From the IMG/VR virus record IMGVR_UViG_3300037264_008794, positions 1-21,945 of that record: a DNA stretch of 21,945 nucleotides; one strand, given 5' to 3'. Position numbers and translations under genes: made by a program. The stretch comes from a virus. Shown here piece by piece: positions 1,126 through 15,060 of the stretch; the first letter of the stretch is position 1, and each line of letters begins with the position of its first letter. The notes under the pieces were generated by a model. That model had not been told where the DNA came from. It did not search any database and saw only the letters and a list, made by a program, of their open reading frames with translations.

Positions 1126-2322
1126 TCATATCGTGATCTGCCTCATCGGCTCACCCTTCACGTCGCCCTCGTGGATGAGCTCGTCCACGGTGTCCGCCTT
1201 CGCCACGTCGTCCCGGACCACGTTGCCGTCATCATCGGGGTCGAGCGTCGGCTGGTAGAGCTTGTTCGCGTCCGTGGCGAACAGGTAGCGCACCCGGACG
1301 ATGCACTCCTCGCCGGCATCCTTGATCTGCTTCTTGTACTTCTCGGGCACCGTGACGTTGCCCACGTTCAGGTTCTTGTACGACCCACCGATTTTCTCGC
1401 GCACCGCCACCTGGATGGAGTTCTTGTCGTTCCACTTCAGCATCAGCGCGCTGACTTCCTTCCAGAACTTGATCTTCACGCTCACGGCCTTGGGTGCGCT
1501 CGAAGCCTTTCCGGCCTCGTACTTGGCGACCTTGAGCTTGATGACCACTCCTTCCTGGCTGTTGGTCCTGAGATCATTCAAGAGCTCGCGCTTCGCGTCC
1601 TCGTTGAAGGCGCAGCGAACGGCGAGGACGTGCGTGCCCTGATAGGTGTCGACGTACTTGTTCAGTGCGTCGTATCTCAGATCAGCGGATATCGCGCTGA
1701 GATCCGACTCGCCAGTCCGCAGGGCGTCCACGACGTAGAACTTGTCGTCGAGCATCTCTCCATCGAGGATCACAGCCTTCCCAGCCTTCCGGACCGCGCT
1801 CGAGATCTCGTCGCTCAGCTCGACGAGCCCGCCGGTCTTGTTGAACGCGATGGGGTCGTCTTTGCCGATGCCGGTCCAGAAAATCCTGCAGAACTGTCCG
1901 TTGAGCTTCTGCTGGAACATCCAGTCGCCGTTCTTGGTGTACGCCTCGAGGTTCCCGAGGTCGTCCTTCGTGGGCATCATGAGGCCGACGCTCATGAAGT
2001 CCGACATCGTCTTCTTCTTGGCCTTCTCGTCGACGAAGCTCTGCACGCTCTGGGGGAGAGCCTTCGAGCCCGACTTCACGACGGAGTAGCCCTTGCCGAT
2101 CTTCTCGTTGAGCAGCTTGTTGTAGAGGCTGCTCGCGTGGTGCTTCATCAGCGCGTTCGGCGTCTTCGTCCCGGTCAGGCCAGCCTGGCCGATCGCTCCG
2201 TACTTGAACTGGACGAACCAGTAGTCGGAGCCGCCCTTCTGCTGCATCCACAGCTCATAGAATTTATTATGGCCAGAAATTTTGCATTCCAGCCGGCGGA
2301 AATCAACCATCATGTCGCTCAT
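1126..2322 (-). CDS. ATP-dependent DNA ligase with N-terminal WGR domain
   Basis: 398 residues; the start is set by AGAGGAGA upstream of ATG 2322. Residues about 15-70 form a WGR-like module (NKFYELWMQ, YWFVQFKYGAIGQAG). From about 105 on there is a nucleotidyltransferase domain: motif I KLNG at 139-142 with Lys139 as the expected AMP acceptor, a LDGEM motif at 186-190, EGVVIK at 257-262 (motif IV) and KIKFWK at 283-288 (motif V). A C-terminal OB-fold follows. The ligase seals nicks using ATP in phage replication or repair. Motif I has Asn where DNA ligases usually have Asp (KxDG); KxxG is still compatible with catalysis. WGR domains are known from PARP1-3, where they bind DNA ends. Fusion to a compact ligase suggests break recognition, which is inference. 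Confidence 0.88.
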   Translation of the reverse strand: MSDMMVDFRRLECKISGHNKFYELWMQQKGGSDYWFVQFKYGAIGQAGLTGTKTPNALMKHHASSLYNKLLNEKIGKGYSVVKSGSKALPQSVQSFVDEKAKKKTMSDFMSVGLMMPTKDDLGNLEAYTKNGDWMFQQKLNGQFCRIFWTGIGKDDPIAFNKTGGLVELSDEISSAVRKAGKAVILDGEMLDDKFYVVDALRTGESDLSAISADLRYDALNKYVDTYQGTHVLAVRCAFNEDAKRELLNDLRTNSQEGVVIKLKVAKYEAGKASSAPKAVSVKIKFWKEVSALMLKWNDKNSIQVAVREKIGGSYKNLNVGNVTVPEKYKKQIKDAGEECIVRVRYLFATDANKLYQPTLDPDDDGNVVRDDVAKADTVDELIHEGDVKGEPMRQITI

Positions 2323-2825: not shown

Positions 2826-2856
2826 AAAGAAAAAGGTCCGCAGGAAATCCGCGGAC
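2826..2856 (-). terminator. Second terminator hairpin after the array transcript
   Basis: On the minus strand GTCCGC (2856-2851) pairs with GCGGAC (2841-2836) around a 9-nt loop, followed by CTTTTTCTTT. The stem is 6 bp. It follows the larger structure at 2857-2936, making a tandem pair. On the plus strand the same stem is preceded, not followed, by T-poor sequence, so the terminator points leftward. Confidence 0.6.
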
Positions 2857-2936
2857 AAAAAAAATGGCGCGGCCAGTCTCCCGACTGTTTGCACCACGGA
2901 TGTCCCGCACATGGCGGAGCATCCGTGGGCCGCGCC
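2857..2936 (-). ncRNA. Three-way-junction RNA fold ending in a U8 tract
   Basis: Outer stem GGCGCGGC (2866-2873) pairs with GCCGCGCC (2929-2936). Inside are two hairpins: CAGTC/GACTG (2874-2887, loop TCCC) and CCACGGATG/CATCCGTGG (2894-2902 with 2920-2928), the latter extended by CCGC/GCGG. Read on the minus strand the outer stem closes onto A then eight T, the form of an intrinsic terminator whose hairpin has been elaborated into a junction. It lies just downstream of the pentamer array in the direction of transcription, so it looks like the 3' end of an array RNA. It could also simply be an ornate terminator. Confidence 0.6.
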
Positions 2937-2956: not shown

Positions 2957-3525
2957 GTGGAGGTAAGTCTCGTCGGTCTCGTCGCGTCTTGACGTGGCAG
3001 GTCTTGTCTGGCCGGGGCTCGTATCGCCTGGCCCCGTCACGTCGGTCTCGTCGCGTCGCGTCGTGAACTGTCAAGCAGAGTCGTGAAGCGTCCGGTCCAG
3101 TCAGGTCGGTCTTGTTGAGTCCTGTCCAGTCAAGCCCGGTAACGTCTGGTCCAGTCAGGTCGGTCTTGTCTAGTCCCGTCATGCCTCGTCCGGAAATGCC
3201 CCGTCCGGAAACACCAAGTCGCGTCGGTCTCGTCCGGTAAGGCCTCGCCTCGGAAAGTCTGGTCCGGTCCAGCCTCGCCTGGTCGCGTCGGTCTAGTCAG
3301 GTCCCATCAAGTACCGCCAGGTGAGGTAGCGTCTTGTCGCGTCGGTCAGGCCACGCTCCGTCTTGCATTGTCCGGTCCCGCTTGGCCAGGAAACGAAAGT
3401 CTTGTCGGTCTCGTCCAGTGCCGCCCAGCCCTGTAGAGTCCAGTATGGTCGGGTCGGTCGTGTCACGTCGTGTCCGGCTAAGTCTGGCCATTCCGAGCAA
3501 AGAAATGTCTCGTCGGTCGTGTCAA
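2957..3525. repeat. Two-level pentamer ladder: (GYCNN)n units separated by GTCG phase steps
   Basis: This gene-free stretch can be cut into about 100 five-base steps, 97 of which begin with G by hand count; GTCNN and GCCNN dominate. Ten copies of GTCGGTC start at 2972, 3041, 3105, 3159, 3223, 3287, 3341, 3404, 3453 and 3512. The steps are 69, 64, 54, 64, 64, 54, 63, 49 and 59. All but one equal 5n+4, so each unit is a run of pentamers plus one four-base GTCG that resets the register. The exception (63) has one extra four-base step, GAAA. Five-base periodicity does not fit a codon frame. The sequence between is not conserved, so this is not a CRISPR array or a simple tandem repeat. Function is unknown. 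Confidence 0.85.
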
Positions 3526-3530
3526 TGGTG

Positions 3531-3562
3531 GAGCGGGAGGCCCATCTCTGAGCCTCCCGCTC
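3531..3562 (-). terminator. 11-bp perfect hairpin after the 3576-4088 gene
   Basis: GAGCGGGAGGC (3531-3541) pairs with GCCTCCCGCTC (3552-3562) around a 10-nt loop, beginning 13 nt past the stop of the upstream gene. There is no T-tract on either strand, so Rho-independent termination is doubtful. It may protect the mRNA 3' end or mark the boundary of the pentamer array. Confidence 0.5.
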
Positions 3563-3575
3563 CTGGAGAAGAAGT

Positions 3576-4088
3576 CTACTTCGCGTGTTTCTTCTTCGGC
3601 TTCACGGAAGCCTTCGCCTGCAGCGACTTGAGATCGCTGATGAACTTCTGGCAGGCAGACCCGAGCACGTCGTGCCACGTCCACCGGCTGACGATCGAGA
3701 CCATCTCGAGTACGCCGGTCTTCATGGCCCCGTCCATGAGGGATTTGCTCTGCCTCACCTCGACGAGGGGGTGGTACTCCTGAGGCCCCTTCTGGTCGGG
3801 CAGGTTGTGGATGTTGATGAACATCGGCGAGGATACCGACTTCCCGGTCTTGATGTCCACCAGCTCGAGACGGTGCATGGAGATCAAAGATCTCGCGATC
3901 TCCAGATTCCACTGCTTCCATCCCTCGTGCTCGTCCCACTCGAACTCCGAGTGGAGAGGATGCTTGATGTCCTTCGCATCCTTGAACACGTCCTCGGCCA
4001 TCAGGCGACCATGCTTCTTGGTCACCATCGCGAGGCCCATCAACTGCAGCTGCCGCCTGGACGGCTTCTTCACCGCCGGCTTCTTCAT
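3576..4088 (-). CDS. Phage hypothetical protein with PLHS-FEWD motif, 170 aa
   Basis: ATG at 4088 has AGGAGGG upstream and overlaps the stop of the preceding gene (ATGA); a longer ORF to 4370 only shadows that gene. The N-terminus is basic (KKPAVKKPSRR). Residues about 31-70 read AEDVFKDAKD, then PLHSEFEWDEHEGW, then a helix NLEIARSLI. This arrangement is common in phage proteins of unknown role that pair a short helical domain with a PLHxxFEWDD-like signature. The C-terminus is very basic (KPKKKHAK). No catalytic motif is visible; DNA binding is plausible but unproven. It sits directly after the 4085-4903 gene and is probably made with it. Confidence 0.8.
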   Translation of the reverse strand: MKKPAVKKPSRRQLQLMGLAMVTKKHGRLMAEDVFKDAKDIKHPLHSEFEWDEHEGWKQWNLEIARSLISMHRLELVDIKTGKSVSSPMFINIHNLPDQKGPQEYHPLVEVRQSKSLMDGAMKTGVLEMVSIVSRWTWHDVLGSACQKFISDLKSLQAKASVKPKKKHAK

Positions 4089-7064: not shown

Positions 7065-9086
7065 CTACAAAGCCTTTTCGCCGCGCCCAATCTTCAGCGT
7101 CAGCATCATGAACATCAGGGAGTGCAACGAGTCGTCGGGCATCGAGTCGGGGTGATCGTAGACGATCTGCCGGAGAGCCCGGTTGTAGTCCTCGAAGACG
7201 CACGTGAAGTCCTCGGCGAACTGGGAGAAGTCCTCCCACTTCGGAAACATGAACTCGCGGTTCTTGATGCCCTGGATGACCATGGCGATGCCCATGGACC
7301 GGTTCAGGGTGTAGAGGCGGCTGGCGGGCTGGTAGCTCAGGTCCCTTTTTTTGACTCCGCTCTCCATGAGCTGGACCACGTCGCAGTACCCGGTCATCGC
7401 CTTGGCGAGATCCTTGTTCTGGACGTAGCCGCCGCCCCAGTCGCATCCGATCAGGCCGACGCCGAACCTCTGGCAGATCTTGGCGATCTCCTCGACCTGG
7501 ATCCCAGGCTCGTCCTTCTCGGCGGCGAACCTCCGCATGTACTCGATGTGGTACTTCCCCCCGTGGAACCCCCCTATGGTGAGCACGGTGAACGAGCCCA
7601 TGCCGGCGCCCCAGTCCACGCCCGCATACAGAGCATCGAAGTACTTGCTCATGTTCCTGAGCTCGAGGATGGGCTTCTGCTGGTCGCAGCAGGCTTTCAG
7701 GTCGCTCTCGGTGATGGGGTTGGCGCCCTTCTCGTGGGCGAGCCCGAGCACCTCGTTGTAGAAGTCCTTCTGGCCCCACTTCTGCGACTTCCGGTAGAGG
7801 TCCTTCCACTTGGCGGGGAACTGCACGATCCAGGGGACCATGGTCTGCGGGATCCTGAAGCCCATGAACTCCGAATCCTCGGCGCCCATCGGGACCCACT
7901 TCCCGAACTGGGGGTCGATGATCTTCCCGCACTTCGGGCAGGTGGGCCCGTCCTTCCGCACGATCTTCTCGTCCTGGAAGACCCACTCCCCGCACGAGCA
8001 CCAGATGAGCCACTCGCACTGGGTGCTGTTCTTCCAGTGGGTCTCCATGCTGTTGTTGAGGGTCTTGGGCGTACCCGCGTAGAACTTGTGGGGATTGGGC
8101 TGGTGGGACATGGTCTCTTCGAGGACCGGGAACACGTCGCTCGTCATGTCCTGGATCTCGTCGCAGAGGAGCATGTCCGCCGTTATGCCTCGGCAGCGGT
8201 CAGCGTCAGTGCTCGCGTAGCTCAAGAAGATCGTCGACCCGTTGAGCATCTGCTTCTCGTAGACGTCGTCGACGCATCTCTGTGGATCGAAGTGCTTGCC
8301 CCTCACGTAGGGGGAGGCGAGCACCCGGTCCAATCTGACGTGGGAGAAGACTTTGGTCTGCCTGTCCGACGAGCTGACGTACAGGCACTTCCAGTTCGGG
8401 TGGACGCACGACGACGCGATGAGTTTGGCGGCCAGCGAACTCGACTTCTCGACCTGCCTCCCGCAGTTGTGGACGACGACCCCACCGGCCACGAACGAAT
8501 AGTCGTTCGTCATGGTGAAGTCGTAGACGTCCTGTTCCCCGGCATCCTCCCACCCGACGCAGTTGGCCCACCCGAAGGCCCCCTCCTTCGACACCACCCC
8601 CACGCGCCGGTACTTGGGATCGGTGTGGGTGCACGTGGCGACCTGCTCGGCGGTCCCCCAGGTCCCCCGCTGGGTCCACAGTTTATGGTCCGACGTGCAC
8701 ACCAGCTCCATGCCGTTGTCGAAGCGCAGGCGCCGGCACTGCATCCTCCCGTTCAGGTGGATCCGGCTGATCTTGGCTGTCCCGAGCCTGTTCCTGGCCT
8801 CGCTCCAGCACACGAGTTCCTGGCCGACGAACTCCTCTGAGGCCATATCCCGCATGGGGATCTCACGGCCGTCGGGGAGGCGGATGGGCATGTCCCCGCC
8901 GATGCACCTCAGGAGTATCTTCTGGTCGTTGAGGTCGTGGATCTTCTTCAGGTAGGGCCTGCCCTCGAACGTGAACGGGGCTCCGTAGTCCACCCAGAGC
9001 CTGCTCGAGATCCACTCCGAGTACGTAATCCCTTCCAGCTCACCGGGTTGTAGGGCCGACACGCCCGGAAGCTGGCCCTCAGACAT
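7065..9086 (-). CDS. terL: Terminase large subunit (intein-containing precursor)
   Basis: The 673-residue precursor starts at ATG 9086 after GAGG. An earlier in-frame ATG (9149) lies upstream of the likely +1, so it is not used. Host-protein features, in precursor numbering: Walker A CGRQVEKSSS right after the intein (residues 208-217), Walker B MLLCDE at about 305-310, a zinc ribbon CSCG...CPKC at about 363-386, and an RNase H-like nuclease with acidic residues in AGVDWG (about 491), IGCDWGG (about 549) and PDDSLH (about 651). This is the packaging ATPase and headful/cos nuclease that pumps DNA into the procapsid. Walker A has Glu where Gly usually precedes the Lys. Splicing would remove 147 residues and leave 526. 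Zinc ribbons in this position occur in some terminase families. Confidence 0.93.
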   Translation of the reverse strand: MSEGQLPGVSALQPGELEGITYSEWISSRLWVDYGAPFTFEGRPYLKKIHDLNDQKILLRCIGGDMPIRLPDGREIPMRDMASEEFVGQELVCWSEARNRLGTAKISRIHLNGRMQCRRLRFDNGMELVCTSDHKLWTQRGTWGTAEQVATCTHTDPKYRRVGVVSKEGAFGWANCVGWEDAGEQDVYDFTMTNDYSFVAGGVVVHNCGRQVEKSSSLAAKLIASSCVHPNWKCLYVSSSDRQTKVFSHVRLDRVLASPYVRGKHFDPQRCVDDVYEKQMLNGSTIFLSYASTDADRCRGITADMLLCDEIQDMTSDVFPVLEETMSHQPNPHKFYAGTPKTLNNSMETHWKNSTQCEWLIWCSCGEWVFQDEKIVRKDGPTCPKCGKIIDPQFGKWVPMGAEDSEFMGFRIPQTMVPWIVQFPAKWKDLYRKSQKWGQKDFYNEVLGLAHEKGANPITESDLKACCDQQKPILELRNMSKYFDALYAGVDWGAGMGSFTVLTIGGFHGGKYHIEYMRRFAAEKDEPGIQVEEIAKICQRFGVGLIGCDWGGGYVQNKDLAKAMTGYCDVVQLMESGVKKRDLSYQPASRLYTLNRSMGIAMVIQGIKNREFMFPKWEDFSQFAEDFTCVFEDYNRALRQIVYDHPDSMPDDSLHSLMFMMLTLKIGRGEKAL
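8466..8906 (-). mobile_element. Mini-intein in the terminase, inserted at Walker A
   Basis: A 147-residue insertion begins with Cys1 (CIGGDMPIRLPDG, block A). It carries the block B TxxH motif as CTSDHKLW, and block F as DVYDFTMTNDYSFVAG. It ends in GVVVHN (block G) followed by Cys as the +1 extein residue. These are the residues needed for class 1 protein splicing. There is no LAGLIDADG or HNH endonuclease domain; about 50 residues link blocks B and F. Removing it joins ILLR to CGRQVEKS and restores the P-loop. Insertion at the ATP-binding site is typical of inteins, which favour invariant motifs. It can presumably splice but no longer home by itself. Confidence 0.92.
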
Positions 9087-9132
9087 GCTTTCGCCTCGAC
9101 GAGTGTTACAACCTGCACGGATCGACGCAGGA

Positions 9133-9162
9133 ACTATACCTTCCACCATAGCACAACGTCAA
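9133..9162 (-). promoter_or_regulatory. Sigma70-like promoter for the terminase operon
   Basis: On the minus strand TTGACG (9162-9157) and TATAGT (9138-9133) are separated by 18 bp. The expected +1 is near 9126, upstream of the chosen start at 9086 and downstream of the alternative start at 9149. The palindromic operator copy at 9171-9185 lies 8 bp upstream of the -35 box. Confidence 0.75.
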
Positions 9163-14680: not shown

Positions 14681-15060
14681 GGGCCCGAACAGGTTTCGAC
14701 TGTGACCCAGAACGGGTAAGCGGCGTGCCGTGGATGGCAGTTGGCCACGTAAACACTCTGCCAATCGCTTAAATGCGAAGGTTCACAAGTTCCCGAGCCA
14801 GCGTTCGCTGGCGCTGGCGGCGTAGTTAGCCGCCTGGGCGTCTGACCCGACGACTCCGATAGTCGGCGATGACGTTAAAGCATCGGAGTAGGTAGCTGCA
14901 TGAAGGCCAGGAGTTGTGCGGCACCGAAGCAGCTCTCCTGACTATGGTGAGGCGGCTTGTCCATGGCCAACCCTCACCAGAATACAACCATGGGCTACGC
15001 ACGTAGTCGCCCTCGGGGCGGGTTCACAGGACGAGGGTTCGATTCCCTCCGGGTCCACCA
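14681..15060 (+). ncRNA. ssrA: tmRNA (transfer-messenger RNA)
   Basis: 380 nt. The 5' end GGGCCCG pairs with CGGGTCC before ACCA at the 3' end, including a G3-U pair, the alanine identity element. The 5' segment GAACAGGTTTCGACTG and the T-arm GAGGG-TTCGATT-CCCTC are canonical. TGTGACCC near the 5' end pairs with GGGTTCACA near the 3' end (one bulge) as the long tmRNA helix. The tag frame opens with GCG at 14775 and encodes AKVHKFPSQRSLALAA before TAG (14823-14825). The ALAA ending is the classic degradation tag. tmRNA rescues stalled ribosomes with SmpB. The 3' CCA is encoded. A pseudoknot-rich stretch follows the tag. Phage-borne copies are known but uncommon. Confidence 0.95.

Follow-up and report, generated by a model that had tools for sequence, protein, structure and literature searches.

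The closest described counterpart of the locus analysed here is the Viral Interference Programmable Repeat (VIPR) system, which is RNA-guided, has a noncontiguous code and was first reported in a 2026 preprint (PMC13142463), the source of the following account. VIPR loci, most of them phage-borne, combine a RAMP gene (vipr) and a vap gene with vrRNAs in which YNNGG is repeated 9-16 times; the pentamers are given as "GGY/NN motifs, or a related consensus" (PMC13142463). The Vipr protein binds the vrRNA, the conserved triplet remains unpaired with the target, and pairing with double-stranded DNA is left to the two N letters of each pentamer, one target base, often a codon wobble, being skipped between dinucleotides (PMC13142463). 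The natural targets reported there are satellites and prophages, and binding represses transcription and acts against competing phages or satellites. The preprint also presents the vrRNAs of SUSP1 as proven RNAs, mentions staggered arrays with overlapping vrRNAs, and proposes VIPR as an ancestor of the CRISPR RAMPs (PMC13142463).

The window, i.e., the whole stretch of 21,945 nucleotides that was analysed, corresponds to the IMG/VR viral record IMGVR_UViG_3300037264_008794 and very probably harbors a divergent phage VIPR locus (Table 1). This assignment was based on the joint presence of the gene pair and the array, and on the finding that such arrays and genes occur together repeatedly. As in the system outlined in the preprint, the locus is phage-encoded (the IMG/VR record carries a terminase large subunit), and a RAMP-like protein gene with one accessory gene beside it, vap, adjoins a compact, reset-delimited pentanucleotide array in which a conserved triplet and a hypervariable NN alternate in tandem. 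Its units comprise 9-13 pentamers, a size within the 9-16 repeats of a vrRNA if the resets bound guides. Unlike in that system, as far as the available text describes it, the triplet read on the vipr strand of the window is GRC (GAC/GGC) and not GGY, the Vipr is very divergent, and no structured constant tail per guide was recognised. GRC was counted as a "related consensus"; the strict GGY triplet, typical of VIPR and not required by the wording of the preprint, was absent from the window array on either strand. Judged against the GGY of the preprint's main text, the altered scaffold triplet GAC/GRC is probably a VIPR variant. The earlier note on this DNA, made from the letters alone, knew of no described class like this array, a statement overturned by its match with the VIPR vrRNAs (PMC13142463).

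Table 1. Features of the putative VIPR locus in the window
Feature	Position	Strand	Basis or remark
VIPR-type pentamer array (vrRNA array)	2962..3525	(-), probable	minus strand reads GAC/GGC+NN; plus-strand view GTCNN
Ten 4-nt resets (GTCG before GTC)	2972..3515	(.)	presumed guide boundaries
vipr gene, RAMP/Cas7-like, 269 aa	4085..4894	(-)	profile, AF2, Foldseek; start uncertain, frame open to 5848
vap-like accessory gene (putative function)	3576..4088	(-)	phrog_15946, actinophage-neighbour profile
15-bp hairpin between vap and array	3530..3563	(-)	on the array's 5' side on the minus strand; z=-5.25
Intrinsic terminator: large hairpin, then eight U	2857..2936	(-)	3' end of the presumed minus array transcript; z=-5.64 for 2825-2970
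Second tandem intrinsic terminator	2836..2856	(-)	

Periodicity, letter composition and resets of the array

The autocorrelation of G over 2957-3527 revealed an excess of G-G matches at lag 5 (116; z=+12.2 relative to 300 shuffles that kept the dinucleotides), for which a check against shuffled sequence had been proposed earlier, with further peaks at lag 10 (z=+10.7) and lag 15 (z=+9.2); the lag-5 peak was also present in the C (z 5.1) and T (z 5.5) series. The pentamer count confirmed that G was the first base in 97/100 pentamers, as previously counted by hand over about 100 five-base steps. On the plus strand, position 2 was occupied by T (65%) or C (24%) and position 3 by C (76%) or A (18%), and the letters at positions 4 and 5 were near-uniform. 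This distribution indicates a conserved triplet followed by two hypervariable letters, a spacer that is shortened to one base once per unit. The five-base phasing had been recognised in the earlier note, the organisation into triplet and hypervariable NN only in part; its opinions that a phase kept under variable content reflects selection on spacing, and that the stretch is neither a satellite, nor CRISPR, nor coding, were judged right.

The score attributed by a ladder parser to the array was 261 bits, the maximum in 20 shuffled contigs being 17. When triplets were fitted on the vipr strand, GAC was the best (289 bits vs 69 for GGC), and the minus-strand letters were G77, A66/G21 and C96 at the three positions, the triplets being 54 GAC, 16 GGC, 7 TAC, 7 TTC and others, that is, GRC. 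RNA folding revealed no excess structure within the array itself. A BLAST search of the array against phages returned no match, since the content of the units is not conserved.

The ten GTCGGTC words start at 2972, 3041, 3105, 3159, 3223, 3287, 3341, 3404, 3453 and 3512, and their spacings of 69, 64, 54, 64, 64, 54, 63, 49 and 59, which equal 5n+4 in 8/9 cases, reproduced exactly those listed in the earlier note. They delimit nine units of 9-13 pentamers each.

Neighbouring genes and related loci

Among the 228 ORFs of the window, the product of vipr was the best match to a profile of 28 other Viprs, with an E-value of 8.7e-15 that is flattering, as 19/28 members had been collected for their resemblance to the window protein. 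With a profile limited to Viprs of the GGC type and from actinophages, whose choice did not depend on that resemblance, it was still the best (E=2.3e-4). The similarity of the window Vipr to its relatives is low, about 20% identity, and the AlphaFold2 model obtained with 28 relatives reached a pLDDT of 80.4, vs 33 from the single sequence. Foldseek paired this model with type III Csm3/Cas7 chains with a probability of 1.00, an E-value of about 2e-5 and modest TM-scores (0.3-0.5), and its viral matches included one annotated as "Cas system-associated RAMP superfamily protein". The predicted fold and the glycine-rich loop would thus be shared with the Csm3/Cas7 RAMPs of type III CRISPR, whereas neither CRISPR repeats nor further cas genes were seen in the window, and its 5-nt code is noncontiguous. 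A CRISPR-Cas array was likewise rejected for the window, there being no conserved repeat separating unique spacers, only one triplet per 5 nt.

The ATG of vap overlaps the stop codon of vipr (ATGA). The vap product matched phrog_15946 (E=7.7e-9) and a profile of Vipr neighbours from Gordonia and Mycobacterium phages (E=1.6e-12), and the tblastn matches of the window vap in phages of these two genera sit directly downstream of Vipr matches. Compared by profile with the distant vap of the GGC-type loci, the window vap gave no significant match; its tie to VIPR goes via its actinophage relatives. Outside the locus, the terminase large subunit gene (7065-9149, minus strand) presents an intein-like insertion near the N-terminus, a WGR domain is fused to a degenerate ATP-dependent DNA ligase domain at 1126-2322 (minus strand), and a complete tmRNA gene is found on this phage fragment at 14681-15060 (plus strand; tag AKVHKFPSQRSLALAA).

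Scans for GTC-triplet patterns recovered nothing beyond chance matches, simple repeats and repeats of the pentapeptide or collagen-like kind. The first true relative, contig L237, came from an IMG/VR scan in which a G ladder had to be flanked by a reset on either side, and its array follows the same grammar with another triplet, having GGCNN pentamers and a reset of GGCG then GTC. A scan for this form returned 62 stretches, and the ladder parser recognised 84 arrays in 56 viral contigs, with 5189 pentamers and 568 GGCG resets. Over these 5189 pentamers, position 1 was G97, position 2 G75/T21 and position 3 C68/T26. The GGC arrays were mostly oriented as their flanking genes, which encode a conserved protein of ~250 aa with a RAMP-like glycine-rich loop and another of ~164 aa; the profile of the ~250-aa RAMP family matched PDB 36pp, "SUSP1 Vipr protein" (E=9.1e-5). 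The plain 14/15-mer tandem repeats GTCTGGTCGGGTCG of L006/L007 (IMGVR_UViG_3300005298_000141) imitate a 5/5/4 pattern and look unrelated to VIPR.

The association between gene and array was assessed in 25 viral contigs whose sole selection criterion was similarity to the RAMP protein of the window, a sample that includes several near-duplicates and amounts to about 20 independent cases. A period-5 GGY/NN array was present in 24/25 of them, always on the strand of the RAMP gene, vs 1/132 controls at the same threshold. In 28 loci (L299-L326), 4-nt steps represented 123/183 phase shifts, mostly as GGCA then GGC. The same gene pair and arrays were found in the Gordonia phages Ecliptus and UmaThurman and in the Mycobacterium phage Pippy, whose loci resemble that of the window in the RAMP-like and phrog_15946-like pair, the period-5 array and the 4-nt resets, and differ from it in the GGY triplet, the GGCA|GGC reset and the placement of the array between or before the genes. 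Period 5 and 4-nt resets were kept in dozens of loci, so that the spacing is maintained in homologous loci, the loss of which the earlier note had named as refuting its reading. Two annotated hypothetical genes, Pippy gp47 (L300:2563-2751) and UmaThurman gp40 (L301:3625-3948), lie inside VIPR-type arrays and are probably no genes.

Regarding the units, two complete identical ones were found in different arrays with differing neighbours on both sides, the change occurring exactly at the resets, and in ten further pairs of identical units the neighbours differed on one side only. Because identical units change neighbours exactly at resets, the resets would be the boundaries of the guides. In L266/L274 and L283/L286, identical guide units have different neighbours, as if reset-bounded modules move. 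Other layouts were also observed: the VIPR-type array at L318:6263-6847 holds 111 pentamers in a single unbroken phase without resets, and the unit junctions at L302:300-656 carry a longer conserved word, GGCAGATCRAGGCA then GGC, possibly a processing site or tail.

Transcribed strand and competing explanations

The array is probably read on the minus strand, that of vipr. This orientation is favoured because the arrays of the relatives all lie on the vipr strand, including the arrays of the 24 loci retrieved by their similarity to Vipr; because hairpin, array and two tandem terminators come after vap in that direction; because the dinucleotides flanking the resets (purine, then A) fit those of the GGC arrays only on the minus strand; and because a codon model prefers the minus strand as sense, if the codon phase corresponds to positions 1-2. 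A VIPR array transcribed from the plus strand, opposite vipr and vap and with a GTC/NN or GYC/NN scaffold, would agree with the invariance of the first G (97%), as in the GGC arrays, and with the CGGTC that the window reset GTCGGTC has in common with the GGCGGTC of the other family; nevertheless, the strand of the relatives, the tandem terminators serving the minus strand and the reset-adjacent dinucleotides make it unlikely. A minus-strand RNA with repeated NNGAC elements, one of three guesses of the earlier note, came close to this best explanation. An Rfam match to anti-hemB over the terminator was weak (E=0.068) and was taken as chance.

Readings outside VIPR fared worse. Simple tandem repeats that are rich in GTC and mix 5- and 4-nt steps do occur in Streptomyces and in one viral contig, and the array could in principle be a decayed pentanucleotide microsatellite, its phase being kept since indels are rarer than substitutions; however, neutral decay does not give the position-dependent conservation observed (97/65/76% at positions 1, 2 and 3, with nearly random letters at 4 and 5), the same resets are found again in unrelated phages, and genes are linked to the arrays, all of which renders this origin very improbable. 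The unusual repeat-generating process suggested earlier found no support. TRAP (MtrB) RNA sites consist of (G/U)AG triplets and 2-nt spacers, and a TRAP-like ring protein that binds 10-14 (G/U)A-triplets per ring, spaced by 2 nt, on an RNA from the minus strand would fit the triplet plus 2-nt periodicity and the unit sizes, which resemble TRAP sites, and also the minus-strand first-position order G>U>A>C. This reading is hardly credible, though, as the third base is C (96%) and not G, the spacers are never 3 nt, the window has resets, and no TRAP-like gene was found, the array being adjoined by the RAMP gene and its partner; this candidate was dropped after the RAMP gene was found. Just as implausible is a protein-binding array at the DNA level, phased at half a helical turn: the 5-bp spacing of G had inspired this proposal of the earlier note, which is unsupported, given that the 4-nt resets break the helical phase, the related arrays share their strand with the RAMP gene, and the vrRNAs of SUSP1 are proven RNAs (PMC13142463).

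Proposed working and implications of the VIPR locus

The minus-strand transcript would run through vipr, vap, the hairpin, the array and the two terminators, and each 4-nt reset would end one guide and start the next, yielding about nine guides of 9-13 dinucleotides each. One Vipr subunit would presumably occupy each pentamer. By analogy with the system described in the preprint (PMC13142463), Vipr would hold the scaffold triplet GAC/GGC (GRC), the NN would serve as guide letters, and binding of Vipr to the window vrRNA may repress competing phages or satellites. No target for the window guides was found in the 2.5 Mb of collected loci or in the window, as no skip rule beat the controls, and one guide core matched 17 times in IMG/VR, in 11 unrelated groups, apparently by chance. 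In the GGC arrays, dinucleotide frequencies correlated with those at codon positions 1-2 of genes (r=0.73), no other positions showing such a correlation, a composition-based trace that is supportive only.

On balance, we lean slightly towards the view that a VIPR lineage switched its scaffold from GGY to GAC (GRC) along with a divergent Vipr, the protein-held part of the code being rewritable, and that the 4-nt short step is a general punctuation between guides in compact VIPR arrays across phage groups. The shared reset provides a simple rule to cut compact arrays into guides, and the presence of arrays in cultured Mycobacterium and Gordonia phages makes VIPR testable there, in laboratory strains. 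Moreover, the window locus apparently keeps the spacing of the code and its information letters and changes the triplet, offering a natural test of the Vipr residues that read the triplet.
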